A DNA stretch of 36,613 bases from positions 1 to 36,613 of the forward strand of contig CANIWQ010000015.1 of the NCBI GenBank assembly GCA_947471365.1. Direction: 5' to 3'. Below the pieces are notes generated by a model. That model saw only the letters and a list, made by a program, of their open reading frames with translations. It searched no databases and had not been told where the DNA came from. Each line of letters opens with the position of its first letter. The stretch's first letter is position 1. Below are positions 15,595-34,407 of the stretch, piece after piece. The position numbers and the translations under genes were made by a program. Source of the DNA: Gemmatimonadota bacterium (GTDB lineage Bacteria > Gemmatimonadota > Gemmatimonadetes > Gemmatimonadales > Gemmatimonadaceae).

Positions 15595-16164
15595 TTACGC
15601 CTCGTGCCCCGTGCGCGCTACGGCGTGCTTGGGATGGTGCCGCGCCTTCGCAGCAGCCGCGCGCTTCTTGAGCTCCGCCTTCGTGAGCGGGGCGAGAATG
15701 GTCCCACGGCACTTCTTGGCGCCGCAGCGGCAGCCGTAGAGGGTGTATTCCTCTTCGTCGTCCTCGGTGCCGTCGCGCGTATAGGCGTAATCGTACGTGA
15801 TTTCGTCGCCCTTGCGAATATCCTTGATTGCTTCAATAAACACTCGCGAACGCTCAATGATCGCTTCGCAGTTGGCGTCGCAGGAGTGATTCAGGAACCG
15901 CGCGTCGTTACCGTCTACGGCCGCGTCGATCACCGTCTGCCGCGTGACCGCAAACAGAAAGGTGTGATGCACACGCTTGGAACGATCATCGTAGCGGGAG
16001 TCGGCCACCGCGTGCGACACGCGCTCGCCGAGGTACTCGATGACCCGCTCGCCCTTCTTGATGTCGCGCGTCGCGAACCCGCCGCGCCCAGCGATCTTCG
16101 AGTGCTTCACCGCAAACAGCTGTTCGCCGGTGGATTGCTTCGATTTCACTTTACGAGCCGCCAT
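15595..16164 (-). CDS. SET-domain lysine methyltransferase
   Basis: A 189-residue SET protein. KHSKIAGRGGFATRDIKKGERVIEYLGE opens the domain; ARFLNHSCDANCEA (NHSC at 92-95) forms the pseudoknot and SAM site; GDEITYDY (119-126) has the catalytic Tyr; and CRCGAKKC (145-152) is a post-SET zinc cluster that would join Cys95. All core residues are present, so lysine methylation of a protein using SAM is expected. The C-terminal tail (about 157-189) is Lys/Arg/His/Ala-rich, like a nucleic-acid or histone-like protein tail. The ATG at 16164 lies inside the end of the TonB receptor gene (19-bp overlap). In-frame sequence further upstream is receptor antisense to nothing useful and is not used. The target is unknown. 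Confidence 0.92.
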   Translation of the reverse strand: MAARKVKSKQSTGEQLFAVKHSKIAGRGGFATRDIKKGERVIEYLGERVSHAVADSRYDDRSKRVHHTFLFAVTRQTVIDAAVDGNDARFLNHSCDANCEAIIERSRVFIEAIKDIRKGDEITYDYAYTRDGTEDDEEEYTLYGCRCGAKKCRGTILAPLTKAELKKRAAAAKARHHPKHAVARTGHEA

Positions 16165-18371
16165 GCCACATCCAGGCCAAGGTACCAGTTGCGCAGTGGC
16201 GCGGGCTCCAGCACCCGCCCCTGCGACCCGTTGATCGTCACGGACGCGACGTACGGAGTATCCAGTAAGTTGTTCACCGCGACGAACGGATGGAACTGGG
16301 TCCCCCCAACTGCGCCCCGCCACGCGAAGCGCACATTCACCAATCCGCGCCCCCAATCCGCCACCGGCAGCGTGTTGCGATCATCGCCAAAAAGCGCGCC
16401 CGCCGTGCTGTGGTCCGCGTCGAGCGTCCATCCGGCCCAGTGCGCCTGCAGCCCCGTCCGCACAAAGCGACGGGGCACCCCCGCCTCCCGCTTGCCGTCG
16501 AGCGTATCGGTGCGCGCCCCATTCGGCACCCGATAATGCACAAACCGATAATCGCTCTCGGTCCACGCCACCGACGCCGTGAGCCAACGCGCCACGCGCG
16601 CCTCCGCGCCAATCTCTAATCCATCGCGCCGCGTGGCCCCGGCATTTCGAAAATAGGCGCGCCCGTTGGTCTCGAGATATTGGATGATCGCGTCGTTCAC
16701 ATTCGAGCGGAACAGCGACACCGAGTAGGTCACCACGCCGCCGACCACACCGCGCGCTCCGGCTTCGATCGTGCGCGTGGTCTGCGGCCCAAGGTCGGGA
16801 TTGAATCCGCCCGCGCCGTCGGCGCGCGAGTTGAGCTCTGTCGTGGTGGGCGTCTCGAATGCCGTGGCGTAGTTGGCATACGGTGCAAACGACGAACGCC
16901 ACGCCCACACCACGCCGGCGTGCCCACTCGCGGCGCGCATCGTGCGTGAGCCGCTATTGTCGCCGTTGCTGGCGCCGGCGGCATCACGAAAGAAGTGATC
17001 GTGCACATCAAAGGCGAGTTGGTCGTATCGCCCGCCAGCGCTCCAGGTGAGGTCACGCACCGGCGTCCACGTGGCCAATACAAATGGACCCACCGACGCC
17101 ACCACCTCCCGCTGGTCCAGCAGCAACGTGTCGGTCGGCGCGGTCCGACGTCCAGCGGTGCCACGCCAGTTGCGACGGCGATCATCGGCGCGTTGCAGAT
17201 CAAGGCCCGCCGTGACGCGCGGCCATGACACCGTCGCCACCGAACTCGCCCCAGCAGAAAGATCCGCGCGCCCACTCGCAGAACCATCAGGCGACCACGT
17301 CCCATCGAGACGCACCCCTTCAATCCACCGCCCCAACGACCCCACCGTGCCCACATTGGCTGCGATCGTCCCCGCCGGTGACGTCGCCAACGGATTATCC
17401 ACCAACCGTCGCATGACATAGGTCGTCGCCGACCAGGTGAAGTTGTCGCCCGCGCGCTGCATACGCACCGAAAACTGCGTCTGCGACAAACTCCGCTGCG
17501 CCCCCCGCGCCCTGTTGATCGCCGCCGCAGAGTCACGATTCGCCGCGTATTCCGCCGCCGTGAGCGCACCGGGATTCAACGCCTCCGGCGTCGCCGCCGC
17601 ATTCACACGGAACTGCACGGTCGTGCGTGCATCGCGCGCCCAATCCACCGCCGCCATGAGCTGGCGCGTGTCGGCGCGACTGTATTGCCGCGTGCCATCG
17701 GTGGTCGTGCGCGAAAGCGAGAACGCGCCTATCACATTGTCCGTGCGCCCCGAGGTACGAAGCTGCACCTTGCGCATCCCGAACGCCCCGCCGCTCACCC
17801 GCGCGCTCTGCCCGAGCGCATCGGGCGCCGAGAGATCGCTCGTAAACGCAATCACCCCACCGGCGCCGTTGCCGTAGAGTGTGGACGCCGAGCCGCGCAG
17901 CACTTCCACGCGCGACACACCCGCGAGATCCACGTTGGTGAGCTGACTCTGTCCGTCCGGCGCCGACTGCGGAACGCCATCAAGCAACACCTTCACGCCG
18001 CGCAGTCCAAAGTTCGCACGCGCGCCCGCGCCGCGGATGCTGAGCCGCTGATCGAGCGCATAGTTGTACCGATTGGCGATATACACGCCGGGAATCGCCG
18101 GCAGTGCCTCATCAACCCCAAGCGTGGCACTGGCCCCCACCACGCCCGATTTCTCAACCACCCCCACGGCCCAGGGCGCACGCTTCGCCGCCTCGGGGGT
18201 GCGCGTCACGGTAATGATCGAACGTCCAAGTCGCTGCGCCGTGTCCGCCACCGCGCGCGCGCGGGCATCAGCACGCGCGGCGGAATCCGTCGTCGCGACA
18301 GCCGTCGCCTGTGCCGTCGCGCGTTCGGCCGCGGCAAGGCACAGCATGGTGAGCAGGATGCGGCGATTCAT
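16146..18371 (-). CDS. TonB-dependent outer-membrane receptor
   Basis: A 741-residue receptor with a signal peptide ending near residue 21 (ATAQ). After an Ala-rich linker, SIITVTRTPEAAKRAP precedes the plug, which contains LPAIPGVYIANRYNYALDQRLSIRGAG, GVKVLLDGVPQSAPDGQSQLTNVDLAGVSRVEVLRGSASTLYGNGAGGVI. These are standard plug motifs. The remaining 550 residues form the 22-strand barrel. It imports a bulky ligand such as a siderophore, cobalamin or glycan using TonB energy; the ligand is not identifiable. TAACGT 6 nt before the ATG suggests a leaderless transcript. It is followed by, and overlaps, the SET gene, and is divergent from the PLP enzyme across a 10-bp repeat array. Confidence 0.95.
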   Translation of the reverse strand: MNRRILLTMLCLAAAERATAQATAVATTDSAARADARARAVADTAQRLGRSIITVTRTPEAAKRAPWAVGVVEKSGVVGASATLGVDEALPAIPGVYIANRYNYALDQRLSIRGAGARANFGLRGVKVLLDGVPQSAPDGQSQLTNVDLAGVSRVEVLRGSASTLYGNGAGGVIAFTSDLSAPDALGQSARVSGGAFGMRKVQLRTSGRTDNVIGAFSLSRTTTDGTRQYSRADTRQLMAAVDWARDARTTVQFRVNAAATPEALNPGALTAAEYAANRDSAAAINRARGAQRSLSQTQFSVRMQRAGDNFTWSATTYVMRRLVDNPLATSPAGTIAANVGTVGSLGRWIEGVRLDGTWSPDGSASGRADLSAGASSVATVSWPRVTAGLDLQRADDRRRNWRGTAGRRTAPTDTLLLDQREVVASVGPFVLATWTPVRDLTWSAGGRYDQLAFDVHDHFFRDAAGASNGDNSGSRTMRAASGHAGVVWAWRSSFAPYANYATAFETPTTTELNSRADGAGGFNPDLGPQTTRTIEAGARGVVGGVVTYSVSLFRSNVNDAIIQYLETNGRAYFRNAGATRRDGLEIGAEARVARWLTASVAWTESDYRFVHYRVPNGARTDTLDGKREAGVPRRFVRTGLQAHWAGWTLDADHSTAGALFGDDRNTLPVADWGRGLVNVRFAWRGAVGGTQFHPFVAVNNLLDTPYVASVTINGSQGRVLEPAPLRNWYLGLDVAWRLVK

Positions 18372-20249: not shown

Positions 20250-21623
20250 ATGACTATTTCCACCGTGAACCCCAACACGGGCGTGATGGTGCGCGAGTTC
20301 ACGGCGCACACGCCAGCCGATGTACACCGCGCGCTCGATACCGCGCACGCCGCTGCGGCGAGCTGGCGCCGCGAACCCGTGGCGCGCCGCATCGCTGTGC
20401 TCACGCGCCTCGCCGAGCTCCTCGACCGTGACCGCGAATCACTGGCCACGCTCGCCACAGGCGAGATGGGCAAAACGGTGCAGTCCGCGCGCGACGAAGT
20501 CGCCAAGTGCGCCGCCGCATGCCGTCACTACGCCACGCATGCGCCGGCGATGATCGCGCCGGAGTCGCAGGTGATCGACGGCGCGAGTGCCACGCTGCAC
20601 TACGACCCCCTCGGCGTGCTACTCGCGGTGATGCCCTGGAATTTTCCATTCTGGCAAGTGGTGCGCGCAGCCGCACCAGCCATCGCGGCGGGAAATGTCG
20701 TGCTGCTCAAACACGCGTCGAACGTGCCGCAGTGCGCGCTCGCTCTCGACGCGATCTTCGCCGAGGCCGGCGCGCCGACGGGTGTCTTTCAAACGCTGCT
20801 CGTGGAATCCTCGCGCGTGGCGGCCCTCATCGCTGACGCGCGCGTGGCGTGCGTCACCATCACCGGCAGTGAAGCGGCGGGACGCGACGTGGCCGCGCAC
20901 GCCGGCCGTGCGCTGAAGAAAACCGTCCTCGAACTCGGCGGCAGCGATCCGTGTGTGGTGCTGGCCGACGCCGACCTGCCCGCCGCCGTCGCCGCCGCGA
21001 TTCGCTCGCGCATGATCAACAACGGCCAGAGCTGCATCGCCGCCAAACGATTCATTGTCGTCGACGACGTGGCCGATGAATTTGAACGCCGCATGATTGA
21101 CGGGGTACGCGCCCTCCGCGTGGGCGACCCCATGCTGGCCTCGACCGACGTCGGCCCACTCGCCACGGCACAGATTCGTAACGAAGTGGCGGACCAAGTC
21201 GCACGCGCGGTAGCAGGCGGCGCACACCTCGCGTGCGGCGGCCACACGCCAGAGGGCGCCGGATGGTTTTACGCGCCCACCGTGCTCGTTCGCGTCCCCG
21301 ACGATTCCCCCGCGCTCACGGAAGAAATCTTTGGGCCCGTCGCGCCCATCGTGCGGGCGCGCAATGTGGACGACGCGCTTGCGCGAGCCAACGCGACGCC
21401 CTTCGGGCTCGGCGCCAGCGTGTGGACCACGAGTGCGGCCCTCGCCGAACGGGCGGCCACGGAGATAGACGCCGGCATGGTGTTTATCAACTCGATCGTG
21501 GCGAGTGACCCGCGCTTTCCCTTCGGCGGTGTGAAGGCGAGCGGCTACGGGCGCGAGGTGGGCGTGCTCGGCCTGCGCGAGTTTGTAAACATCAAGACGG
21601 TGCGCGGCTCAGCCAAAGAGTGA
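20250..21623 (+). CDS. gabD: NAD(P)+-dependent succinate-semialdehyde dehydrogenase-type aldehyde dehydrogenase
   Basis: A 457-residue aldehyde dehydrogenase superfamily protein. It starts STVNPNTG, as GabD/Sad-type enzymes do. VMPWNFPFWQVVRAAAPAIAAGN holds the catalytic Asn131, TVLELGGSDP holds Glu228, and NNGQSCIAAKR holds the nucleophile Cys262. EEIFGPVAPI and FPFGGVKASGYGRE complete the family pattern. It oxidises an aldehyde, most likely succinate semialdehyde, to the acid in the cytoplasm; length (about 455-460) fits the short Sad/YneI-like group. No GABA transaminase is adjacent, so the substrate is inferred from family only. It converges with the Ser/Thr kinase gene. Confidence 0.88.
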   Translation: MTISTVNPNTGVMVREFTAHTPADVHRALDTAHAAAASWRREPVARRIAVLTRLAELLDRDRESLATLATGEMGKTVQSARDEVAKCAAACRHYATHAPAMIAPESQVIDGASATLHYDPLGVLLAVMPWNFPFWQVVRAAAPAIAAGNVVLLKHASNVPQCALALDAIFAEAGAPTGVFQTLLVESSRVAALIADARVACVTITGSEAAGRDVAAHAGRALKKTVLELGGSDPCVVLADADLPAAVAAAIRSRMINNGQSCIAAKRFIVVDDVADEFERRMIDGVRALRVGDPMLASTDVGPLATAQIRNEVADQVARAVAGGAHLACGGHTPEGAGWFYAPTVLVRVPDDSPALTEEIFGPVAPIVRARNVDDALARANATPFGLGASVWTTSAALAERAATEIDAGMVFINSIVASDPRFPFGGVKASGYGREVGVLGLREFVNIKTVRGSAKE

Positions 21624-21704: not shown

Positions 21705-23477
21705 CTACTCGTCGTCCGGCTGACCGCCGCGCCCCATTAAAGTCTGGAAGGCGCGCGTCACGCGCGTGCCGAACGGCACTTGCGAAGCGTCATGCAGGAC
21801 GTCGAGCGTCACGCGTTGCCATTGCGCCTGCATCTCCGCGGCGTCCGCAAAACGCGCATCGGGATCGGCAGAGAGCCCGCGCGCGAGCCACGCGCCGATC
21901 GCGGGGTGAAACGGCGTGACGTCGAGTGTACCCGAAAGCTGCTGCGCCAAAATCGCGCGCCCGTCGGGTCCAGCGAACGGCGCGCGCCCCGCCAGTGCGA
22001 AATAGACAATTGCGGCCACCGCAAACAGATCCGCCCCGACACCCTGTTGCTCGCCGAGGAGCTGTTCTGGTGGCGCAAAGGCCGGCGTGCCGCTCGAGCC
22101 GGCCCACTCTTCACCCATCGCGTTGGCAATGCCGAAGTCGGCAATGCGCCACTCGTGATAGCGATCGATCAGAATATTTTCGGGCTTCAAATCGCGGTGC
22201 AGAATGCCAGCTTCGTGCGCCACCTTGAGGCCGTCGAGCACACGGCTCACATGCGAGGCCACTTCCGCGAGCGGCCGCGCGCCGAGTCGGCGCACGAGAT
22301 CGGCCACGGACCCTTCGTCCTGCAGCTCCATCGAATACCAGTGCACGTCGCCCTTTTGGTCCCAGTCGTACACGGGGACGATCGCCGGGTGCTGCAGGCG
22401 CGCCGCCATTTGCGCTTCGCGCCGGAAGCGCGCCACGGCTTCGTCGCTCCGAGCGACCGTGGGATGCAACATCTTGAGCGCGACTTCGCGCTGGAGCGTG
22501 AGGTCGCGCACGCGCCACACGGAACCGAAGGTACCAGCCCCGAGCGACGACAGGACTTCGTAGTCGTCACCCGTGGCCCAGCGCAAACGGTCTTCTTCGC
22601 TCACCGCGCGGAACTCGCCTGAGGCAATTTCGACACCGCCCAAGCCGGGCGTTCCGCTCCCCGACATTTTTTCGACCGCGCGGAGCAACGACGCCACCGA
22701 ATAGAACCGATCGGCCGGATTCACCGCCAGCGCGCGGTCGAGCAGCTCCGCGACATTGGTGGGACAGTCCGGGCGCACCCATCGCACCGGAGGAATTTCG
22801 GTGCGCGGAGGCAGTTCGCCGGTGAGAATAAAGAAACAGCTCGCCGCGAGTTGCCACTGATCGGACTCCGCCGTGGGTTTCCACTCGCCCGCCCCCCACT
22901 CGCCAGGTTGCGGTGTCGACACGGCGGCGGGTTGCGCGCCCGGCGGAATGTCGGCAACCGGCAACGCCCACTGCCAGCCGAGCATCCAGACGCGGCCGGT
23001 GGGTGTGACGTACAGCGAGTCCGGACCAATGGCGCCATGCGTCTGACCGGCATCATGCAAATACGCGACGGCCGACCCAGACGCGCGCAGCACGCGCAGC
23101 ATGTATTGCACCGTCTCGGTGCCGAGCCGAAGAATGCGCGTGCCGACCGTTTCGCCCGTCACCCAACGGCGCAGATATCCGGGGCCGCGCCGGCTCCCCT
23201 GATGCTGCTGCCAGTAGTGGTACGTGGTGGGCACCGCCGGATGGTTGTGATGCCCGAGCGCACGCGCTTCGGCAAACAGCCACGGCTCATGGGCCGGATC
23301 GGGTGCGGTAATGAGCGCGAGCGACCGACCGAGCGAGTCGACGATCTCCTGCGCGTGGCGGGAGTTTGCGTAGTAGCCGCCGGCGCCCCATCGCCAACCG
23401 GGCGGTAGCTGCCACAGCTCAAGATGCGGGGGAACGCCCGTGGTGCGCGTACCGTGCGCGGGTTCAGCGCTGCTCAT
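21705..23477 (-). CDS. Tandem pseudokinase plus active Ser/Thr protein kinase
   Basis: A 590-residue soluble protein with two Hanks-type kinase domains. The C-terminal domain (about 304-565) is complete: GAGTFGSV (313-320), VALK with K335, E354, HRDLKPEN (427-434), DFG (447-449) and a PPEQ segment. The N-terminal domain (about 28-270) keeps the fold, with an AEARALGHHNHP helix, a hinge-like RRWVTGET, SAVAYLHDAGQTHGA, DQWQLAASCFFILTG and NPADRF. It has lost the catalytic residues: ALIT for VAIK, HGAIGPDS (147-154) for HRDLKPEN, and MLGW (165-168) for DFG. I infer a pseudokinase that regulates the second domain. No membrane segment or PASTA repeat is present. It lies 15 bp after the histidine kinase in the same operon. 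The ATG at 23477 is preferred; a GTG directly before it is possible. Confidence 0.9.
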   Translation of the reverse strand: MSSAEPAHGTRTTGVPPHLELWQLPPGWRWGAGGYYANSRHAQEIVDSLGRSLALITAPDPAHEPWLFAEARALGHHNHPAVPTTYHYWQQHQGSRRGPGYLRRWVTGETVGTRILRLGTETVQYMLRVLRASGSAVAYLHDAGQTHGAIGPDSLYVTPTGRVWMLGWQWALPVADIPPGAQPAAVSTPQPGEWGAGEWKPTAESDQWQLAASCFFILTGELPPRTEIPPVRWVRPDCPTNVAELLDRALAVNPADRFYSVASLLRAVEKMSGSGTPGLGGVEIASGEFRAVSEEDRLRWATGDDYEVLSSLGAGTFGSVWRVRDLTLQREVALKMLHPTVARSDEAVARFRREAQMAARLQHPAIVPVYDWDQKGDVHWYSMELQDEGSVADLVRRLGARPLAEVASHVSRVLDGLKVAHEAGILHRDLKPENILIDRYHEWRIADFGIANAMGEEWAGSSGTPAFAPPEQLLGEQQGVGADLFAVAAIVYFALAGRAPFAGPDGRAILAQQLSGTLDVTPFHPAIGAWLARGLSADPDARFADAAEMQAQWQRVTLDVLHDASQVPFGTRVTRAFQTLMGRGGQPDDE

Positions 23478-23492
23478 CACGCGTTCAATCTG

Positions 23493-26400
23493 TCAGACCG
23501 GCGCGGCGGATACTAGGGTGATGCGAACCGTCGTGCCGGTGCCGGGTTCGCTGGTCATCGTGATGGTGCCGCCCCATCCCTCAATGAGTCGACGGCTGAT
23601 GGCGAGCCCCAGCCCACTGCCGCTGGTGCGGGTAGAGAAGTGCGGCTCGAACACGCGCGGCAGCACGTCGGCGGGAATACCGCCGCCATCATCCACCACA
23701 CGGATCGCCACGGGTCGGCCGGCAGCCCCCCCCTCCACCAGCACGCGCACGTGTTGCGCCGCTGCCTGTCGTGCGTTCTCGAGCAGGTTCAGCAACACTT
23801 CGCGCAACTCGGTGGGGCGCGCCAGGGCGAAGACGGGACTGTCGGCCCCCTCGAGCGTCCAGATCAACGCGCCGGCGTCGAGTTTCTCAAGCTCCACGAC
23901 GTCGTGCGCGGAGAGCGCCACGTCCACGGGCACCGCTTCCGCCGCTTCACTCGGGACGGTCCCATACTGACTGAAGGAACGGGCGATCTCGTCGAGCCGG
24001 TCGATTTCATTCAGCAGACGCGCCACATTCTGCTCGAGCACCTCGTCGAAGTTCACGCGTGGCTCGTGTCGCGCGCGCAGCAGGTGCTGCACGCCGAGGC
24101 GCATTGGCGTGAGGGGATTCTTTATTTCGTGCGCGACTTGGCGCGCCATCTCGCCCCACGCGAGGACGCGCTGCGCCTTGGCTTCCTGGGCACGCCCCGC
24201 TTCGAGATCGCGCGCCATGCGCCGGAACGCGCTGAACACCGGCGCAAACTCGGCGGGTGGATCGCCCGCGAGCATCGGCTCGCGCTCCCCGGCGGCCAGC
24301 GCGAGGGCGCCCCGCTGCAACGCACCGATGGGGCGCGAGAACTGACGCGCCGCGCGCCCGGACAGCCAGAGCGCGGCGAGCGCGCCAAGCAACATCGCAA
24401 AGAGGAGATAAATCCCGAGATCGCGGCGACGGCGGTCGAGTGCGAGATCGTCGGTTCGGGCTGGCGCCCCCAGCACCACGCGCATCAATGTGTCGGGCGC
24501 GGCACGGAAGCCAAAGCGCACCGGCGTGAGACCAACATCCACTTCCGTACTCACGGCCGACTCATCGCCCTCCGCGAGCGCACGCGCCGCGTCCGCCGGC
24601 AACAATCGTCCCGCCGGCGAGAGCGCGTCGAGCACCGGATCGCTCGACGCCACCATCACGCCATTGGCAAACAAGAAGAGCGGCGTCTCAAAACGAAGCG
24701 CGAGTCCCGTCAGTCGTGTGGTATCGCCCGACGCGGCCGCCACCCCGCGCAACGTTTCACGCACGAGCAAATCGCGTGATTGCTGGTCATCGGTGCGCAG
24801 GCGACGATAACTCCACGCCACAAACGCGGTCGCGGGGAGGACGAAGAACGCGAACAGCACCACCGTCAGTTGCGCGCGATAACTGCGGAGCCAGTGCCGC
24901 CGATGGATGCGCACCCAACGACCGAGCGCTCCATCGGCGAGAATCAGGAGCACCCAGAGTGCGCCGAGCATCAAGAGGTTGAAGCAGACCAGCAACGATC
25001 CGCGCGAGACCAACACTTCGTACCCGCGCATTTCCACCCGTGCATGCACACGGGCAATGCGCCCACCCGTCACGGGCACGAACCAGTCGCCGTGCATTTC
25101 ACTGCCCCGACGCGTCCAGCGCTCCCCGAGGCTGATGAAGCTCGCGGGGTTCGTTTCACTCAGCGACAGTGAATACGGTGGCTCGGTCGTGGTCGGTTCG
25201 CCAACGCCCACGAGGGCGCCAAACGGATCGTGCGGCAACAGGCGCGAGCGCGGTCCCACGACGACCGTGGTCACCGAGCCGTCGCTGTGCGGAGCCGACA
25301 GCACCAGATTCACCGACGCCCCTGCTGGCGAGGCGCGCATAATCGGCTGCGCCGCGCCGCGGGCCTCGCGCGCAAAAATGTCGAGCCCGGCCGGCTCCGA
25401 CGTGCCCATCGAGACCCGGAGATCCGCCATGCGAGCGCCGCGCGCGTCCCACGTCGTCAACTCCACGGGATAGTCGCCCGCCGCAAGATACGAGGCGGCA
25501 AACTGGGCCAGCAGTTCGACTCGACTTTGTGCCGCGCGCGCCGGATCGAGTTGCGCCGTGAATCCCTTGAGCAAGTTGGCGGCGGCGCTGTCGACCACTT
25601 GCAGCGCGCCCACGTCGCGTTCGGCCATCAGCACGCGTGCACGCACGGACTGCCCCCACGTCAGGGTCACCGCGCCACAGGCCGCAATGAACGCCGTCGC
25701 CAACATCGCACCGCGGGTGCGCCGCGAAAAGGCGAGCACGCCGATTCCCACCACCCAGAGGAGCGGATACCACGCGGGAAACCCTCCGGGCGCTTCGATG
25801 AGCAGTGGCGCCAACAGCGCGGACACGGACGCGATCAGCACGGCAACCCACGGCGGCGCACCGCGACGGTTGCCGAGTGCGGCGCGCCCGGCCGTGATGC
25901 CGGCGATCATCACCGACGCGGCGGCGAGAAAGAGCACCGCCTCCCACCCGAGCCACATCGCGAGGTTGGCGCCATTCTGTGGGACCTGAATGCCGCGCGC
26001 GAGATCGCGCAAAATGAACGGCCCGATTCCCGCCACGAGCACCACGGCCACCAACGCCTGCGTCCGTGAGCGTCGTCCCACGCGCGCGCGTAACGTGGCA
26101 AGCAGCGCGGCCAGAATGATCGTGCTGGTCAGTCCGAGCGCGGCAATGCTCGCGGTAAAGGCACCGCCGGCGGGGACGTAGTACGCAGCCGGATCAAAGA
26201 GCACGGAGACATTGGAGAACGACGTGAGCGGCACGATGGCGACACAGCCCAGCGCCACCCCGAGCGCGCCGAGCCGCAACCGGACGTCGCGCGTGGCGCG
26301 CCAGGTGGCCGACAGCAGGAACGCGAGCGCGATGGCGAGCGCGAGTCCACCACGGGCGCGGGCACGCTCCACCACGCGGGCGCTGAGCACCTCCACCGAC

Positions 26401-27182
26401 GGCGCGACGCCGTGCACCCCCAGCAGCGGGACGCCGCCCGCGTGCAGGATGGCAAACGTATCGGCGGGCGACGACGCCGGATCGCGATACGCGTATCCGT
26501 CGATCTCGTGCGTCTGGGCCATCGGACGGTCAAGCGCTGGCGCGAGTTCATCCGCGGGTTTTTCGGCGTGGACCAGTGTCAGGGCTATCGCGCGATCGTT
26601 CCCACGTCCTGCAATGGCGTAAATGGCGAGGTAGAACGGTGTCCCCACCACACCCACCGGCCCAGCCAACGAATCGAGCGGCACCATCACACGCCCAGAC
26701 CACGCCACCGGGGTCGCAATCCCGGGGCCGACGGCGCGCACGAGCACGACGGCACGCGTCGGTGCGTCGCCTCGCAACGCATCGAGGAATCCGAAGGCCG
26801 CAGCCGCACGAGGCGGCGCGTCGAGCGCCGCGTTGGCCAAGCGCTGGAGCTCGCTCGTCTCGCGCTCAAGGGCCGCAACGAGGTCGGCCGTGGCTCTGTG
26901 TTCGACCGACAGTCGCGTGGCCGCGGCATCCAGCGCGCCCGCCGATCGCGCCAATCGGTCCCGCTCGGCGACGCCGGCGATCACCAGAAAGACGCCGAGC
27001 ACGGCCACCAGCGCCACGCGATGCCCGCTCCTCGGGCCGCGGGAGACCGCCACCACCGCCGAAACAGCGGCCACAAATGCGACACCGAGCGCGAGGGTCG
27101 ATGGCGTGCGCAACCACGCGGCGCCTGCCAGCACGGCAACTGTGGCCGATACCCCCCACCAGAACGCGCGGCGCGTATTCAC
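23493..27182 (-). CDS. Large polytopic NtrY-like sensor histidine kinase
   Basis: A 1229-residue membrane kinase. Three N-terminal helices precede a periplasmic-type region, about eight more helices follow, then a second soluble region and two more helices. A third short sensor region, a final helix and a HAMP-like ARQFSRPIGALQRGALALAAGE come next. The catalytic end has EMARQVAHEIKNPLTPMR, the NtrY-type H-box with phospho-acceptor His1018, then NLLENARQAA, DDGGGIP and GSGLGLAISRRLIEGWGG of the ATPase domain. It autophosphorylates in response to an unknown signal. No response regulator is adjacent. I chose the GTG at 27182 because a perfect TATAAT lies 6 nt upstream. A GTG at 27233 adds 17 residues, but the TATAAT would then lie within the gene. 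It is co-transcribed with the tandem kinase gene. Confidence 0.9.
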   Translation of the reverse strand: MNTRRAFWWGVSATVAVLAGAAWLRTPSTLALGVAFVAAVSAVVAVSRGPRSGHRVALVAVLGVFLVIAGVAERDRLARSAGALDAAATRLSVEHRATADLVAALERETSELQRLANAALDAPPRAAAAFGFLDALRGDAPTRAVVLVRAVGPGIATPVAWSGRVMVPLDSLAGPVGVVGTPFYLAIYAIAGRGNDRAIALTLVHAEKPADELAPALDRPMAQTHEIDGYAYRDPASSPADTFAILHAGGVPLLGVHGVAPSVEVLSARVVERARARGGLALAIALAFLLSATWRATRDVRLRLGALGVALGCVAIVPLTSFSNVSVLFDPAAYYVPAGGAFTASIAALGLTSTIILAALLATLRARVGRRSRTQALVAVVLVAGIGPFILRDLARGIQVPQNGANLAMWLGWEAVLFLAAASVMIAGITAGRAALGNRRGAPPWVAVLIASVSALLAPLLIEAPGGFPAWYPLLWVVGIGVLAFSRRTRGAMLATAFIAACGAVTLTWGQSVRARVLMAERDVGALQVVDSAAANLLKGFTAQLDPARAAQSRVELLAQFAASYLAAGDYPVELTTWDARGARMADLRVSMGTSEPAGLDIFAREARGAAQPIMRASPAGASVNLVLSAPHSDGSVTTVVVGPRSRLLPHDPFGALVGVGEPTTTEPPYSLSLSETNPASFISLGERWTRRGSEMHGDWFVPVTGGRIARVHARVEMRGYEVLVSRGSLLVCFNLLMLGALWVLLILADGALGRWVRIHRRHWLRSYRAQLTVVLFAFFVLPATAFVAWSYRRLRTDDQQSRDLLVRETLRGVAAASGDTTRLTGLALRFETPLFLFANGVMVASSDPVLDALSPAGRLLPADAARALAEGDESAVSTEVDVGLTPVRFGFRAAPDTLMRVVLGAPARTDDLALDRRRRDLGIYLLFAMLLGALAALWLSGRAARQFSRPIGALQRGALALAAGEREPMLAGDPPAEFAPVFSAFRRMARDLEAGRAQEAKAQRVLAWGEMARQVAHEIKNPLTPMRLGVQHLLRARHEPRVNFDEVLEQNVARLLNEIDRLDEIARSFSQYGTVPSEAAEAVPVDVALSAHDVVELEKLDAGALIWTLEGADSPVFALARPTELREVLLNLLENARQAAAQHVRVLVEGGAAGRPVAIRVVDDGGGIPADVLPRVFEPHFSTRTSGSGLGLAISRRLIEGWGGTITMTSEPGTGTTVRITLVSAAPV

Positions 27183-27188
27183 GGACTC

Positions 27189-27194
27189 ATTATA
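27189..27194 (-). promoter_or_regulatory. Putative -10 box of a leaderless transcript (histidine kinase)
   Basis: A perfect TATAAT on the minus strand, 6 nt before the GTG at 27182. No good -35 is visible 16-18 nt upstream. It supports the shorter start for the kinase. Confidence 0.55.
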
Positions 27195-27223
27195 CCGCAG
27201 GCTCGCCCGCGCCGCGCCTTGGC

Positions 27224-27229
27224 TATCTT
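27224..27229 (+). promoter_or_regulatory. Putative -10 box of a leaderless transcript (secreted protein)
   Basis: TATCTT with a 6-nt spacer to the ATG at 27236. Together with the TATAAT at 27189-27194 it makes a compact divergent promoter pair in a 53-bp gap. Confidence 0.5.
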
Positions 27230-27235
27230 TCACGG

Positions 27236-28041: not shown

Positions 28042-29502
28042 ATGCGCAAGCTGTGGAGTGCCGTACTTCTGCTCGCGACCGCCGGACCGCTCGCCGCTCA
28101 GGCGACGGCGTCGTTGTCGCTCGAAGAAGCCATCGATCTCGCCAAAAAGAACAGCCCCATGGTGCTGACGTCGCGGAACAATCGCGCGCGCGCCGAGGCC
28201 AGTCTCAAGTCGGCGTACGGGGCGTTGCTGCCGAGCGCCAACTCGTCGCTCAGCACGAGTCTGCGTCAGGGCAAGCAGCAGTACTTCAGTGGCGTGGCGT
28301 TTGGCGCCACGAGCGACGTGCTCAACTCATCGTGGGGGCTCGACGTGAGCGCTCGCCTGAGCGCCCGCACCCTCGCCACCATGCGCTCGGCCAAGGCCGC
28401 GCTCGACGCCTCGGAAAATGCGTTGAAGGCGGATGAGAACAGCATCCGCAGCACGATCATCCAGCAGTACAACCTCGCGCAGCAGATGCAGGCCCGGGCG
28501 GCGTTGCAAGACTCGCTCGTCGCCAGCACGCAACTCCAGCTCGACTTGGCCCGCGCCAAGGCGGGGGTCGGCTCCGCCACGTCACTCGACGTGAAGCGCG
28601 CCGAAGTCGCGTTTGGACAGCAGCAGGTGGCGGCGCTCCGCGCGCACAACAGTGCGAACGTCGAGCGGCTGCGCCTCTTTCAGGCCATCAGCATCCCGGC
28701 GCCAGACGCGGTCACCCTGACATCCAAGACGGCCGTCACGGAGCCGACCCTTGGCGTGCAGGAGTTGGTGACCGCGGCGCGTCAGTCGAACCCGACGGTA
28801 CTCGCCTCACGGTCGCAGGTCACGCAGGCCGAGAGCGAACTCACCGCGGCGCGCGGCGACTATCTGCCGTCGGTGGGCTTCAATGCCTCGGTGGGTGGAT
28901 CGGCGCAGCAGTATCGCGATGGCAACTACCTCGTGAATCAGGCGCAGAACTCCGTCGCGAGCTCGCGCGCGAACTGTTTCACCACCGATTCCCTGCGCCG
29001 CGGCGCCGGGCTCTCGGGCATTTCGTCGTGCGGCGCGATTGCACTGAGTGCCAACGACGCGCAGAAGCTCCGCGACTCCAACAACCAGTTCCCCTTCGGC
29101 TTCACGCCGAACCCGTACAGCGTGTCGCTGTCGGTGTCGCTCCCGCTCTTCGACGGGTTCTCCCGCGAGCAGCGCGTGCAGGCGCAGACGCTCACCCGCA
29201 ACGAGTCGCAGCAGCGCGTGCGGGCCTACGAACTGCAGTTGGTCACCGACATCACCTCGGCGCACGGCACGTTGCTGGCCGACTATCGGACGGTGAAGTT
29301 GCTGGAGAACAACACGCAGGCCGCGCGCGACGCATTGCGCCTGGCCGAAGAGCGCTACCGCGTGGGGCTGAACAGCCTCGTCGACCTGCAGCAGTCTCGG
29401 TCAGACTACGAAAAGGCGCAAACGGATTTGATCGACGCTAGCTTTGAATTCCACCGGGCGTACGCGGCGTTGGAAAATGCCGTCGGCCGCCCCCTTCGCT
29501 GA
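28042..29502 (+). CDS. TolC-family outer-membrane efflux protein
   Basis: A 486-residue protein with a signal peptide ending near LAAQ (20). Two repeated halves each carry the long helices and strand pairs of the outer-membrane efflux family: ASLSLEEAIDLAKKNSPMVLTSRNNRARAEASLKSAYGALLPS in the first and GVQELVTAARQSNPTVLASRSQVTQAESELTAARGDYLPSVGF in the second. YRVGLNSLVDLQQSRSDYEKAQTDLIDASFEFHRAYAALENAVGRPL is the typical C-terminus. It should form the trimeric outer-membrane channel for the exporter encoded downstream. AGGA lies about 11 nt before the ATG. Two Cys in the loop near residues 313 and 332 may form a disulfide. The adaptor gene starts 12 bp later. Confidence 0.92.
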   Translation: MRKLWSAVLLLATAGPLAAQATASLSLEEAIDLAKKNSPMVLTSRNNRARAEASLKSAYGALLPSANSSLSTSLRQGKQQYFSGVAFGATSDVLNSSWGLDVSARLSARTLATMRSAKAALDASENALKADENSIRSTIIQQYNLAQQMQARAALQDSLVASTQLQLDLARAKAGVGSATSLDVKRAEVAFGQQQVAALRAHNSANVERLRLFQAISIPAPDAVTLTSKTAVTEPTLGVQELVTAARQSNPTVLASRSQVTQAESELTAARGDYLPSVGFNASVGGSAQQYRDGNYLVNQAQNSVASSRANCFTTDSLRRGAGLSGISSCGAIALSANDAQKLRDSNNQFPFGFTPNPYSVSLSVSLPLFDGFSREQRVQAQTLTRNESQQRVRAYELQLVTDITSAHGTLLADYRTVKLLENNTQAARDALRLAEERYRVGLNSLVDLQQSRSDYEKAQTDLIDASFEFHRAYAALENAVGRPLR

Positions 29503-29514
29503 CCGGGGACCGAG

Positions 29515-30798
29515 ATGAGTAAGGGAATGAAGTACGGCATCTTCGCCGTCGCCGTGGCCGCGATTGGCGGCGTGGTGTTTGTCACCGCGCGCCAGAACAG
29601 CAACAAAGCCACGGAAGTCCGCGTCGAAGCGGTCGCAAAACGCGATCTCGTGGCGTCGGTGACGGCCAGTGGTCAGGTGCGCCCGCATACGAAGGTCGAC
29701 CTCTCGTCCGACATCACGGGCAAGATTGTGAAGTTGTCCGTGCGTGAGGGCGACTGGGTGAAGAAGGGGCAGTTCCTGCTCCAAATCGACCCGCAGGTCT
29801 TCGAGGCGGCCGTGCAGCGCGCCGAAGCCATGGCATCCAACGCCAAGGCCGGGCTCGCCCAAGCGCAGGCCAGCCTGATCCAGTCGCAGAACAACTACCG
29901 GCGGTCGCTCGAAATCCGGAAGAGCAATCCGAACCTGGTGGCCGAAGACCAAATCGAACAGCTGAAGACCGCCTCAGAAGTTGCCGCCGCACAGTTGGAC
30001 GCGGCCAAGCACAACGTCGAGCAGGCTGAAGCGTCGGTCAAGGATTCCAAGCTGCAGCTGGGCAAGTCCACGATCTACGCCCCCATGACGGGCCGCATCA
30101 CGCGCCTCGTGGTGGAGAACGGCGAAACGGCCATTCAGGGCACCTTCAACAAGGACGCCGCCACGCTGCTCACGATCTCGGACATGAGCGTGCTCGAGAC
30201 GAAGGTGAAGGTCGACGAAACCGACGTGAGCCGCATTCACCTCGGCGACTCCACGGTCGTCCAGCTCGACGCCTTCCCCGACACCACGTTCGTCGGCAAG
30301 GTAGTTGAGATTTCGAACAGCTCAGTCAAGGGCACCACCACGGCCACCGGCGATCAGGCGATCGACTACGAAGTGACCGTGCGCCTGCTCAACCCGCCCA
30401 AGGACACCAAGCCGGACTTCTCGGCCACGGCCAAGATTATCACCTCGTCCGTGACCCAGAAGCTGTCCATTCCGATTATCGCCCTGACGGTGCGCGAGAA
30501 CGAAGCGCTGGCCAGTGCCGATACCGCCCAGCGCCCCGGCGCCAAGCAGACGACCAGCAAGCAGGTAGGGAAGAAGGACGTCGAAGGCGTCTTTGTGGTG
30601 GGCACGGACAACAAAGTGACCTTCCGCCCCGTAAAGGTAGGGATCGCGGGCGAGAAACACTTTGAAGTGCTTTCGGGGCTGAAGGAAGGCGACCGTATTG
30701 TCGCCGGCACCTATCAGGCGATCCGCGAACTCAAGGACGGCACGCTCGTGCGCGAAGCCAAAGTTCCAGAAAAGAAGCCGGGGAGCACCAAGTCGTGA
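29515..30798 (+). CDS. MacA/HlyD-type periplasmic adaptor
   Basis: A 427-residue membrane-fusion protein. One N-terminal helix (about 7-24) anchors it in the inner membrane. [44 protein letters not shown] is the lipoyl half-motif. A helical hairpin (about 98-182) with [17 protein letters not shown] follows, and then [20 protein letters not shown], the second lipoyl half. Beta-barrel ([21 protein letters not shown]) and membrane-proximal domains complete it. A 20-residue insert rich in Gln/Lys/Thr (about 342-356) lies in the latter. It bridges the TolC channel and the permease. Its stop overlaps the ATPase start as GTGA. Confidence 0.92.
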
Positions 30799-31592
30799 GC
30801 CAGCAAATGGAAGAAGTCGCCCTCGGGATTACCGCCGAGCGTCAGGCCGTGATGTCGTCGGCCGGCATGGCACCAGGGAAAGACTGGGTCATCGTCGCGC
30901 GCGGACTCAAGCGTGAATATGACATGGGTGGTGAAATCGTCCGCGCGTTGCGCGGCGTCGACCTCGCCATCCATCGCAATGAATACGTCGCTATCATGGG
31001 ACCGTCGGGGTCGGGCAAGTCCACCCTGATGAACATGATCGGCTGTCTCGACACGCCGAACAGTGGCGAGTACTGGCTCAACGGCCAGCTCGTCTCCACC
31101 ATGAAGGACGACGAGCTGGCGCGCGTACGAAACAAGGAGATTGGGTTCGTCTTTCAGACGTTCAACCTGCTCCCTCGCGCTACGGCGCTGGCCAACGTTG
31201 AGTTGCCGCTCGTGTACGCGGGGGTCTCTGGGAATGAGCGTCGCGAGCGAGCCGCCGCGGCCCTTGAGCGCGTACAACTCGGTTCGCGCATGACGCACCG
31301 TCCGAACGAACTGTCCGGCGGTCAGCGTCAGCGTGTGGCCATTGCTCGCGCCCTCGTCAACGATCCCTCAATTCTTCTCGCCGACGAGCCGACGGGTAAC
31401 CTCGACTCCACGACGTCGGAAGAAATCATGCGCGTGTTCGAGCAGCTCGCCGAATCGGGCCAGACGGTCATCATGGTGACGCACGAGCCCGACATCGCCG
31501 CGCATGCGCGTCGCGTGGTGGTGCTTCGCGACGGCCTCGTGGCCAGCGACGACAAGCGGGACACGTTCACCAAGGCGGTCGGGCTGGTCTGA
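30795..31592 (+). CDS. MacB/LolD-type ABC transporter ATP-binding protein
   Basis: A 265-residue stand-alone ATPase. Walker [11 protein letters not shown]-loop FQTFNLLPR, signature LSGGQRQR, Walker [13 protein letters not shown] and H-loop THE are all intact. An extra 30 residues precede the usual [16 protein letters not shown] start. In E. coli MacB the ATPase and permease are fused; here the ATPase is separate and serves the permeases encoded downstream. The GTG start overlaps the adaptor stop and follows GGGGAG by 9 nt. It powers mechanotransmission or export by the MacAB-type complex. Substrate is unknown: peptide, lipid or antibiotic are possible. Confidence 0.95.
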
Positions 31593-31607
31593 CCGCCCGG
31601 CCAGCGT

Positions 31608-31675
31608 TCAGGCGCGCGCGTCACGCCTGAGGCCACACCACTGCGGGGGATCCGGTTCTTCGCCGCGTCCCCCGC
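31608..31675. terminator. Two hairpins between ATPase and first permease
   Basis: The 128-bp gap holds two perfect inverted repeats: TCAGGCG/CGCCTGA (31608-31614, 31624-31630) and GCGGGGGA/TCCCCCGC (31643-31650, 31668-31675). Neither has a T-tract. They may cause partial termination or mark processing, lowering or decoupling permease expression. No promoter box with the leaderless spacing is evident, although TAGGTA lies 4 nt before the next ATG. Confidence 0.35.
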
Positions 31676-31720
31676 GCTGTTTCTCCATTCACTTGCCCCA
31701 CCCCCGACGCTAGGTAGCAG

Positions 31721-32965
31721 ATGCTGTTCTTTGAAGCCGTCCGCATGGCGCTCAATACGATTCGCGTGCAGAAACTCAAGAGTTTCTTCACCGCGCTCGG
31801 CGTCTGCATTGGCGTGATGTTCCTCATTACCGTCGTATCGATTGTCGACGGCATGGGGCGTTACATGGAAACGGAGTTGGTCGGCAAGCTTATTGCCGTG
31901 AACTCCTTCGAGCTCCGCTACCGCCCGAACTTTGGCGCTGGCGAAATGAACCGTGCCGCGCAGCAAGAGTTCAACCGTCGGCCTCGGCTCTTGGAGAGCG
32001 ATGTGGAGCCGGTCGCTGAAGCGCTCGGCGAAGGCTCGCTCTGGGCGATGTATTCCACCGATCAGCTCAAGGTCGAGTCGCCGTTTTCGCGCCCTCGGTC
32101 GGCGACTATCACGGCCATCGACGGCCAGTACTTTGAAATCAAGAAGCTCGACGTCACCGTTGGCCGCCGCTTTACCGCGGCCGAACTCTCCACGGGTGCC
32201 AGCGTCGTGATTCTTGGGCCGGACCTCGTGAAGCGTCTCTTCCCTACCGTGGCTCCTGTGGACCGGCAGATCAAGCTCGGCGGTAAGATGTATACGGTCG
32301 TGGGCGTGGGCGAGTCACTCGGCAGTGCGTTCGGCATGAGCTTCGACAACTATGTCTATGCGCCGTTCCGCTCGCCGGTGCATCGGTTGCTCAACAAGCA
32401 ACCGCACGTCATCGACGGCATGATCATTCAGGTGCCGGTGGCCGACATGCTGGCCGACGGGCAAGAGCGCGTGCGCACCATCATGCGGGCGCGGCACCAG
32501 TTGCACCCGGCGCAGAAGGATGACTTCACCATCGAAACGTCCGACACTGCGCTCGAGTTCTGGAACAAGATCAAACAGTATCTGATTCTCGCTGGCGTTG
32601 CGTTGCCGGCCATCGGCCTCGTCGTGGGCGCCATCGTGATCATGAACATCATGTTGGTGGCCGTCGCCGAGCGCACGCATGAGATTGGCATTCGCAAGGC
32701 GATGGGCGCCAAGCGGCGCGACATCCTGATGCAGTTTCTGATTGAGTCTGCCACCTTGAGCACGTTCGGTGCCGCTATGGGCATCGCGCTCGGCGCCCTA
32801 TTCGCCTTGCTCATCCGGTCGACGACCCCGATGCCCACGTACGTGGCGCCGTGGTCGATTATGGTGGGCGTGTTGATCGGCGCCGGCGTGGGAATTATTT
32901 CGGGGGTGTACCCCGCGAGCCGCGCGTCGCTGCTCGATCCGGTGGCCGCCTTGCGGCAGGAGTAG
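31721..32965 (+). CDS. MacB/FtsX-type ABC permease, A-type copy 1
   Basis: A 414-residue inner-membrane permease. TM1 (about 20-43) lies in MALNTIRVQKLKSFFTALGVCIGVMFLITVV, a large periplasmic MacB-PCD domain spans about 45-285, and three C-terminal helices follow, with AERTHEIGIRKAMGAKRRDILMQFLIE between the first two and YPASRASLLDPVAALRQE at the end. These are FtsX/MacB hallmarks; the ERTxEIGIRKAxGA loop is the coupling helix to the ATPase. An RRPRLLESDVEP segment in the periplasmic domain recurs in the second A-type copy. The next gene starts 3 bp later. It likely pairs with B-type copy 1 as a heterodimer. Confidence 0.92.
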   Translation: MLFFEAVRMALNTIRVQKLKSFFTALGVCIGVMFLITVVSIVDGMGRYMETELVGKLIAVNSFELRYRPNFGAGEMNRAAQQEFNRRPRLLESDVEPVAEALGEGSLWAMYSTDQLKVESPFSRPRSATITAIDGQYFEIKKLDVTVGRRFTAAELSTGASVVILGPDLVKRLFPTVAPVDRQIKLGGKMYTVVGVGESLGSAFGMSFDNYVYAPFRSPVHRLLNKQPHVIDGMIIQVPVADMLADGQERVRTIMRARHQLHPAQKDDFTIETSDTALEFWNKIKQYLILAGVALPAIGLVVGAIVIMNIMLVAVAERTHEIGIRKAMGAKRRDILMQFLIESATLSTFGAAMGIALGALFALLIRSTTPMPTYVAPWSIMVGVLIGAGVGIISGVYPASRASLLDPVAALRQE

Positions 32966-32968
32966 CGC

Positions 32969-34240
32969 ATGCGTTCACTGGATAAAATCAAAATGTCGCT
33001 CGAGGGCGTGTTCATTGCCTTCGATGCCATGAAAGCCAACAAGGTGCGCGCCGGTCTCACCATTCTCGGCGTGGCGGTGGGCGTGTTTGTCGTCGTCGTG
33101 ATCTCGGCAGCGGTGCACGGCATCAACGAGAGCGTGGCGCAGCAGTTTCAGTCGGCTGGACCAACGACGTTCTTTGTGCAGCGCTACCCGATTGTGTTTG
33201 AGAACTGTCGCGATTCGGGCGACGCGTGCACCTGGCGCTCGAATCCTCCGCTCGCGTACAGCGAAGCCGACGTGCTCAAACGCCTGGAATCGGTGGAAGA
33301 AGTCGGCATTCGCTCCGGCTGGGGCGCGTCGGTCAAGTACCGCGACCGCGAACTGCCGATGGTGGGCATCACCGGCATTACCGCGAACTGGCCGCAACTC
33401 AATCCGCCGGACATGATTGACGGGCGCGTCTTTACGGAGCAGGAGTCGCGCGCCGCTGCACCGGTGGCGGTGATCAATACCACCGCCGCGGAGCGGCTCT
33501 TTGGCGATGAAGCCGCCCTCGGCAAGGAAATCACCCTTACGGCGTTGCAAGGCGCGAAGCGCGGAAGTCCCTTCCTCGTCATTGGCATTTACAAAGACAA
33601 TGCGAGTTTTCTGCAGGGGGGAGAGCGTCCGGCGATCGTGACGTCGGTGTATGCGCTCAACCGTCGCCTTGGTTCCAATCCGCGGCAGAGTGCGTTCATC
33701 ATCAAGCCGAACCCGGCGGTCCGTCAGGACCAGACCATCGACGATGTCACGGCGGCGTTGCGTGGCGCGCGTGGGCTCCGGCCGTCGCGCGAATCGAATT
33801 TTGCCATCACCACCCAAGACAAACTGTTCGACATCTACAACAAGGTGTTCGGCATGTTCTTCTTGGTGATGATCTCGCTGAGCTCCGTGGGATTGCTGGT
33901 TGGCGGCGTGGGCGTGGTGGCCATCATGATGATCTCGGTCACCGAGCGCACCCGTGAAATCGGCGTGCGGAAGGCGCTGGGCGCGACCCGCGGCATCATC
34001 CTCTGGCAGTTCCTCGTGGAGGCCGTGACGCTGACGGCCACCGGCGCGATGATCGGCTTGGCCATTGGCTGGGCGGTGGCGTTGCTCATTCGGAGCACGA
34101 CCCCGATTGCCGCCTCGGTGCCCCCACTGGCCGTGGTCGCGGCGCTGGTGGCCAGCGCCTTCACCGGGATCGTCTTTGGCATGCTGCCGGCCATCCGGGC
34201 CTCGCGTCTGGACCCCGTGACGGCGCTCCGGCACGAGTAA
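32969..34240 (+). CDS. MacB/FtsX-type ABC permease, B-type copy 1
   Basis: A 423-residue permease with the same plan as its neighbour: TM1 about 25-48 within IAFDAMKANKVRAGLTILGVAVGVFVVVVISAAVHG, a periplasmic domain, and three C-terminal helices with TERTREIGVRKALGATRGIILWQFLVE as the coupling loop. It is clearly a different subfamily from the A-type. The periplasmic domain holds a Cys-x6-Cys pair (ENCRDSGDACTW), absent from the A-type copies but kept in the second B-type copy. GGAG 6 nt before the ATG gives good translation. It should dimerise with A-type copy 1. Confidence 0.92.
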   Translation: MRSLDKIKMSLEGVFIAFDAMKANKVRAGLTILGVAVGVFVVVVISAAVHGINESVAQQFQSAGPTTFFVQRYPIVFENCRDSGDACTWRSNPPLAYSEADVLKRLESVEEVGIRSGWGASVKYRDRELPMVGITGITANWPQLNPPDMIDGRVFTEQESRAAAPVAVINTTAAERLFGDEAALGKEITLTALQGAKRGSPFLVIGIYKDNASFLQGGERPAIVTSVYALNRRLGSNPRQSAFIIKPNPAVRQDQTIDDVTAALRGARGLRPSRESNFAITTQDKLFDIYNKVFGMFFLVMISLSSVGLLVGGVGVVAIMMISVTERTREIGVRKALGATRGIILWQFLVEAVTLTATGAMIGLAIGWAVALLIRSTTPIAASVPPLAVVAALVASAFTGIVFGMLPAIRASRLDPVTALRHE

Positions 34241-34255
34241 CGGTCGCCCGCCGGC

Positions 34256-34334
34256 GCTCGGGGGCATTCGCCCCCTGAGCGCCCCCTGAGCGCCCCCTGA
34301 GCGCACCCTGAGCGCCCCCTGAGCGCACCCTGAG
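34256..34334. repeat. 11-bp tandem repeat with adjoining hairpin
   Basis: Six copies of CGCMCCCTGAG (four CGCCCCCTGAG and two CGCACCCTGAG) fill 34269-34334; a degenerate seventh follows. Immediately upstream, GCTCGGGGGC (34256-34265) pairs with the first repeat (34270-34280) with one bulged T. The array sits in the 167-bp gap between the two permease pairs. The rest of that gap holds nothing recognisable, except AGGGG 4-5 nt before the next ATG. Confidence 0.9.
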
Positions 34335-34407
34335 CGCGCGCGGAGCGGTGAGGACAGCGGGTTGCTGTCGAACGAAACATCTCAGCCCCTCCCCTCGTAG
34401 GGGCACC

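Follow-up and report, generated by a model that had tools for sequence, protein, structure and literature searches.

In Janus kinases (JAKs), FERM and SH2 domains precede a JH2 pseudokinase and a JH1 kinase; the protein carries a tyrosine-kinase signature, and the contact between pseudokinase and kinase is autoinhibitory. The bacterial kinase PknB, for its part, combines a single kinase domain with a membrane helix and PASTA repeats. Bacterial pseudokinases have been little studied, and the bacterial pseudokinase-kinase tandems of which we found descriptions all belong to anti-phage proteins. PglW, of type-2 BREX (Pgl), and a subset of DndF proteins carry an inactive kinase domain in tandem with an active one (PMC12839542, PMC10853773). 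PglW is a defence-system protein of 1400 to 1600 aa, with an N-terminal NERD nuclease domain and a C-terminal DNA-binding/iSTAND half. Its K677A substitution abolishes both autophosphorylation and defence, which identified the second kinase domain as the catalytic one (PMC4365076) and provides a precedent for a pseudokinase-kinase tandem in which only the second domain is catalytic. Other bacterial pseudokinases have been assigned to the MviN/ActPs3, ActPs1, ActPs2, GLW, CP1, DYD and DLHK families (PMC12599244). In the available part of that source, no fusion to an active kinase is described for the ActPs1, ActPs2, MviN/ActPs3, GLW, CP1 and DLHK families, and neither Gemmatimonadota nor tandem or fused kinase domains are mentioned.

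Here we analysed a gene for a pseudokinase-kinase tandem protein in a 36,613-nucleotide stretch of DNA from a Gemmatimonadota bacterium (the window). A preliminary description had regarded this layout as uncommon in bacteria. Since it has precedents in phage defence, in PglW and some DndF proteins, the novelty is limited to the standalone, lineage-core form: what is new is a minimal, standalone, chromosomal pseudokinase-kinase tandem that belongs to the core genes of a lineage and lies outside defence.

Organisation and fold of the tandem protein

The gene occupies positions 21705..23477 of the minus strand, as do all the features given below for it. Translation from the ATG at 23477 yields 590 aa, and a GTG one codon upstream (23480) would extend the product to 591 aa; a promoter scan gave nothing above chance. 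The protein consists of an N-terminal domain (residues 20-275, 22653..23420), a linker (residues 276-300, 22578..22652) whose first part is predicted to be disordered, and a C-terminal domain (residues 302-560, 21798..22574). Pfam recognised a single kinase domain, at residues 307-517 (PF00069, E 5e-43), and gave no match to the first 280 residues even at an E value of 0.01; among the orthologues, the N domain was matched by Pfam in only 24 of 82. Other comparisons did detect the relationship to kinases, as residues 58-269 matched PknA in a phmmer search of PDB sequences (E 1.7e-14) and the profile of the 82 orthologues did so with an E value of 6.6e-19.

The N domain, modelled alone by AlphaFold2 with the orthologue alignment, gave a pLDDT of 93.6 and a pTM of 0.89, with all the strands and helices of a two-lobed kinase present and in full order. 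The best PDB matches found with Foldseek were PknA and PknB (E 8e-15), and VIA-align superposed the model on PknB with a Z score of 26.5 and an rmsd of 2.5 over 244 residues. The C domain matched PknA and PknB with Z scores of 31.7 and 31.2, respectively, so that these two proteins are the closest solved structures of both domains. The proposal that residues 20-275 form a two-lobed kinase fold was thus borne out by structure prediction, and neither a different fold in this region nor orthologues with intact catalytic residues there were encountered. The full-length model contained both domains (pLDDT 88.2), with residues 275-291 disordered, a linker pLDDT below 50 and a whole-protein pTM of 0.58; how one domain lies with respect to the other is consequently not confidently predicted. 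The fold search with the full-length model retrieved single kinase chains that matched only the C domain and is silent on the tandem arrangement. MviN and JAK/TYK2 chains were absent among the PDB matches listed, which does not count against them.

No membrane segment was found in the protein: the only hydrophobic stretch over the threshold, residues 479-497, corresponds to helix alpha-F in a kinase fold. The NCBIfam model for PASTA kinases (PknB/Stk1) scored 210 bits, compared to its cut-off of 450. A transmembrane or PASTA sensor kinase was therefore discarded, and the tandem lacks the membrane helix and repeats of PknB.

Both domains were compared at their catalytic positions, which were tabulated in 127 distinct orthologues. 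In the N domain of the window protein, VAIK is replaced by ALIT, with I56 (23310..23312) where the ATP-binding Lys would be; HRDLKPEN is replaced by HGAIGPDS (23016..23039); and ADFG is replaced by LGWQ, with G167-W168-Q169 (22971..22979) at the place of DFG. The ATP-Lys position was occupied in the orthologues by Val (119), Ile (5), Leu, Thr or a gap (1 each), and never by Lys. At the HRD Asp position there was Ala in 102, Gly in 12, Ser in 5, Cys in 4 and Asp in 4; at that of the metal-binding Asn, Thr in 71, Ser in 18, Asn in 15 and other residues in the rest; and at the DFG Asp position, Gly in 108, Glu in 14, Ala in 3, and Asp and His in 1 each. The Lys and both Asp residues were combined in none of the 127 N domains. 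These losses were accompanied by a conserved set of other residues: the alpha-C Glu (E70), W168 and W170 were identical in 127/127 orthologues, D206 and R257 were also invariant and R104 was nearly so. In the alignment, R104 coincides with the gatekeeper residue, and W168 with the DFG Phe.

The C domain, by contrast with the first one, has a complete catalytic set, which comprises the Gly loop, VALK with K335 (22473..22475), E354, HRDLKPEN (residues 427-434, 22176..22199), DFG (residues 447-449, 22131..22139) and PPE as the APE motif, as in a Hanks-type Ser/Thr kinase. K335 was kept in all 126 orthologues with letters at this position and, together with it, the alpha-C Glu, HRD, KPxN and DFG were kept in all the 125 to 126 orthologues that contained the region. 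For its part, the N domain combines a kinase fold with the conserved loss of the Lys of VAIK and of the Asp of both HRD and DFG and, as judged from its sequence, lacks the residues on which ATP-Mg binding and catalysis depend. The motifs on which the preliminary description based its reading, including the loss of the metal-binding Asn, were present as quoted, and its central claim, a pseudokinase and an intact kinase in one soluble protein, was upheld by the fold, by the residues lost and retained in the orthologues and by the absence of a membrane segment.

With respect to the known bacterial pseudokinases, the N domain resembles ActPs1-3 and GLW in the loss of all three catalytic motifs, and MviN in having bulky aromatic side chains close to the ATP pocket (F724 and W789 in MviN), according to the available part of PMC12599244. 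Also on the basis of that part, GLW pseudokinases have GLW at the HRD position and a C-terminal transmembrane segment, whereas the tandem has HGA and no such segment; CP1 pseudokinases are linked to a COG3899 ATPase domain, which is absent here, where there are only kinase domains; and ActPs3/MviN proteins are actinobacterial, with a deletion in the activation loop and a C-terminal transmembrane segment that the tandem lacks.

Conservation and distribution of the tandem

The two halves of the protein were similarly conserved, with 69 columns at least 95% conserved in the N domain and 72 in the C domain, and the median dN/dS over 35 close pairs was 0.073 and 0.050, respectively. Both are under strong purifying selection. 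The replacements in the N domain are not due to chance, since they recur in 127 distinct orthologues with dN/dS values far below 1.

We surveyed 395 sampled genomes of the phylum, counted by hand, of which 140 corresponded to Gemmatimonadaceae, a family of soil and water bacteria, and 255 to other families. The N domain was present in 128 of the former and in none of the latter, where the best scores (∼1e-25) were at the level of ordinary kinases. The N domain was missing from 12 family genomes. Eleven of them also lacked an orthologue of the C domain (best score, ∼159 bits, compared to 500 for the positive control); in the twelfth (G228), the C domain was cut by a contig edge. Wherever the contig allowed it, both domains were present, never apart, and their joint presence and absence indicate that they are inherited and lost as one unit. 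The search for homologues gave the 127 distinct orthologues, with the dead-then-live pattern wherever both regions were contained. The gene was nearly always single-copy and syntenic, and a pattern scan for close relatives in 84,980 species genomes found the architecture in Gemmatimonadota only. The tandem kinase is a vertically inherited, lineage-core gene of Gemmatimonadaceae. A phage or mobile origin was rejected, as viral contigs contained no relative and no plasmid record matched most of the query.

In the phylogenetic tree, the N and C domains formed two separate monophyletic clades, both with a single origin and 100% bootstrap. A recent tandem duplication was ruled out, because the N clade lies outside the C clade and the two are ancient.

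Some additional copies were observed. Two genomes (G040 and G089) carried a second, diverged tandem (L144:6743-8815 and L145), with 39 to 43% identity in the N domain and the same pattern of a dead and a live domain; that in L144 lies between a TetR-like regulator and the start of a beta-ketoacyl synthase-like gene, both recognised from their N termini only. Another genome of the family contained a broken N-domain copy (G136:C86:2514-3286) with in-frame stops in the match (one TGA and one TAG).

Relationship to defence tandems and proposed role of the first domain

The order of an inactive and an active domain was also seen in seven PglW proteins, two from Gemmatimonadota, above the curated cut-off, and five plasmid borne; it was less distinct in one MAD6-type protein (MADS kinase). 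Like PglW, the tandem has, in one polypeptide, a first kinase domain without the Lys, HRD Asp and DFG and an intact second one; unlike it, it is a lineage-core product of 590 aa that comprises two kinase domains only. The first domains of these PglW proteins (L169, L170 and L173-L177) contain HRALSPxS and NWQ, compared to HGAxSPxT and GWQ here, a likeness that may reflect either convergence or shared origin. A shared origin, suggested by these look-alike motifs, obtained no support from profile scores, which revealed no specific similarity between both first domains, or from the tree, which left them ungrouped, and a joint clade was not rejected by the AU test (p 0.24). An independent origin of the two pseudokinases is the simpler reading.

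The tandem might be regarded as a stripped-down relative of PglW/DndF that works in phage defence. The shared domain order, the resemblance of HRALSPHS and NWQTA to HGAISPDS and GWQWA, the AU result and the alignment of the NCBIfam and PADLOC PglW models to residues 124-560 are in line with such a role. However, the PglW model, whose cut-off is 990 bits, scored only 93, and the N-domain sequences reached 4 to 23 bits with a model of the first PglW domain, compared to 27 to 56 bits with a generic kinase model. The protein has no NERD domain, no defence gene was recognised adjoining it, and viral contigs gave no match. Its presence in 128/140 family genomes also contrasts with that of PglW (2/249). 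A defence role is thus very improbable, and the tandem looks like an everyday signalling protein.

We consider that the protein is probably a soluble Ser/Thr kinase whose PknA/PknB-like C domain is regulated by the dead N domain, an integral part of the chain that takes no part in catalysis. The pseudokinase would keep a rigid, kinase-like form free of nucleotide, and its pocket would presumably be filled by conserved residues that are either bulky or charged: W168, W170 and, in the gatekeeper region, R103/R104. It would bind the active domain in cis, or else one tandem would pair with another, and so set the activity of the C domain, which, having all the catalytic residues, is expected to phosphorylate itself and its substrates. 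A partner or ligand at the pseudokinase might relieve or impose this control, and a tie to the histidine kinase described below can be imagined. Regulation in cis, as proposed in the preliminary description, is the best supported reading because neither domain occurs or is lost without the other and the constraint on both is equal, but the whole-protein AlphaFold model (pTM 0.58) contained no confident inter-domain contact.

The comparison with JAKs, also made in that description, holds for the dead-then-live order of the domains and not for the rest. FERM and SH2 domains are absent from the 590 aa, and the C domain has a Ser/Thr signature (HRDLKPEN and GTPAFAPPE) of the bacterial PknA/PknB type rather than that of a tyrosine kinase. 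A TYK2 tandem structure is cited in the available part of PMC12599244; as far as the models go, rigid autoinhibition of the JAK2/TYK2 kind would be neither backed nor countered by our data.

The main rival to regulation in cis is a docking or scaffolding role, in which the pseudokinase would recruit substrates or localise the kinase and leave catalytic activity in cis unchanged. The bacterial pseudokinases studied functionally are mostly scaffolds, such as MviN, whose pseudokinase recruits FhaA, and EssB/YukC, which scaffolds a secretion system (available part of PMC12599244). The strong conservation of N-terminal and C-lobe residues and the model without a confident domain-domain contact are also consistent with docking. 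The strict co-occurrence and co-loss of both domains fit scaffolding and cis-regulation alike, but for the known scaffold pseudokinases the part of the source cited describes no fusion to an active kinase. Docking is the less likely of the two, yet a serious possibility. The tightly constrained pocket region, with E70, W168, W170, D206, R257 and R104, would also suit a domain with another chemistry or a ligand-sensing function, be it metal-free nucleotide binding, a metabolite sensor, AMPylation as in SelO or glutamylation as in SidJ, pseudokinases that have gained new activities. Against this, the acidic metal ligand is gone in most orthologues (DFG Asp kept in 1/127, HRD Asp in 4/127 and Asn in 15/127, and Lys in none), while SelO and SidJ keep the Lys and the DFG Asp (table in PMC12599244), which makes this explanation quite unlikely. 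Finally, the loss of every catalytic motif could be taken to mean that the N domain is a decaying, functionless duplicate of the active one. Such decay is contradicted by the dN/dS of ∼0.07, by conservation throughout the family and by the family-specific invariant residues, and the position of the N clade outside the C clade argues against a recent duplicate, so that this idea is practically untenable.

The protein offers a compact natural system in which to ask whether bacterial pseudokinases control kinases in cis and whether the arrangement arose more than once. Controls are built into the family, which includes ∼120 orthologues that have diverged, a pair of diverged paralogues, and relatives that have lost the whole protein.

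Genomic neighbourhood

Upstream of the tandem gene, on the same strand, lies a gene for an NtrY-like multi-pass sensor histidine kinase of 1246 aa (23493..27233), whose stop is 12 to 15 bases before the start of the tandem gene. An orthologue of this histidine kinase was directly upstream in 68 of the 96 testable loci and nearby in 16 more, mostly convergent and beyond the aldehyde dehydrogenase gene. It was also present without the tandem in genus g13 and in genomes G048 and G329, and G190 has the tandem and gave no match to the histidine kinase. An obligate partnership was thus ruled out, as each occurs without the other. In g13, all the sampled members (G047, G094, G112 and G245) lacked the tandem and kept a relative of the histidine kinase.

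A more elaborate version of the regulatory reading would see here a core signalling enzyme, evolved apart from JAKs and PglW, whose pseudokinase gates the fused Ser/Thr kinase allosterically. In most of the family, this enzyme would be coupled to a two-component sensor through operon partnership, and the pseudokinase would read the histidine-kinase signal and relay it as Ser/Thr phosphorylation. We put this forward tentatively, as a rather doubtful proposal.

On the downstream side, the window contains a convergent aldehyde dehydrogenase gene (20250..21623, plus strand), a neighbour that is often conserved, and a TonB-dependent receptor gene on the same strand as the tandem (16146..18371, minus strand). 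The best NCBIfam match of this receptor was PqqU, with 317 bits, below the cut-off of 1200. In some relatives, the tandem kinase and receptor genes are immediate neighbours or share a reading frame. In five genomes, which represent two or more genera, the tandem frame runs stop-free into the receptor (L039:5986-9924, L040:5866-9756, L041:5986-9897, L044:5941-9699 and L034:1-2337, the last on the minus strand), with a signal-peptide-like stretch at the junction and open reading frames of 1253 to 1313 aa, unless cut by the end of the locus. The continuous frame would correspond either to a true fusion or to in-frame internal initiation.

On the other side of the histidine kinase gene, and divergent from it, an efflux cluster of the TolC-HlyD-ABC-MacB type was observed (28042-35646, plus strand), and many relatives have its TolC gene as a conserved neighbour on the upstream side.
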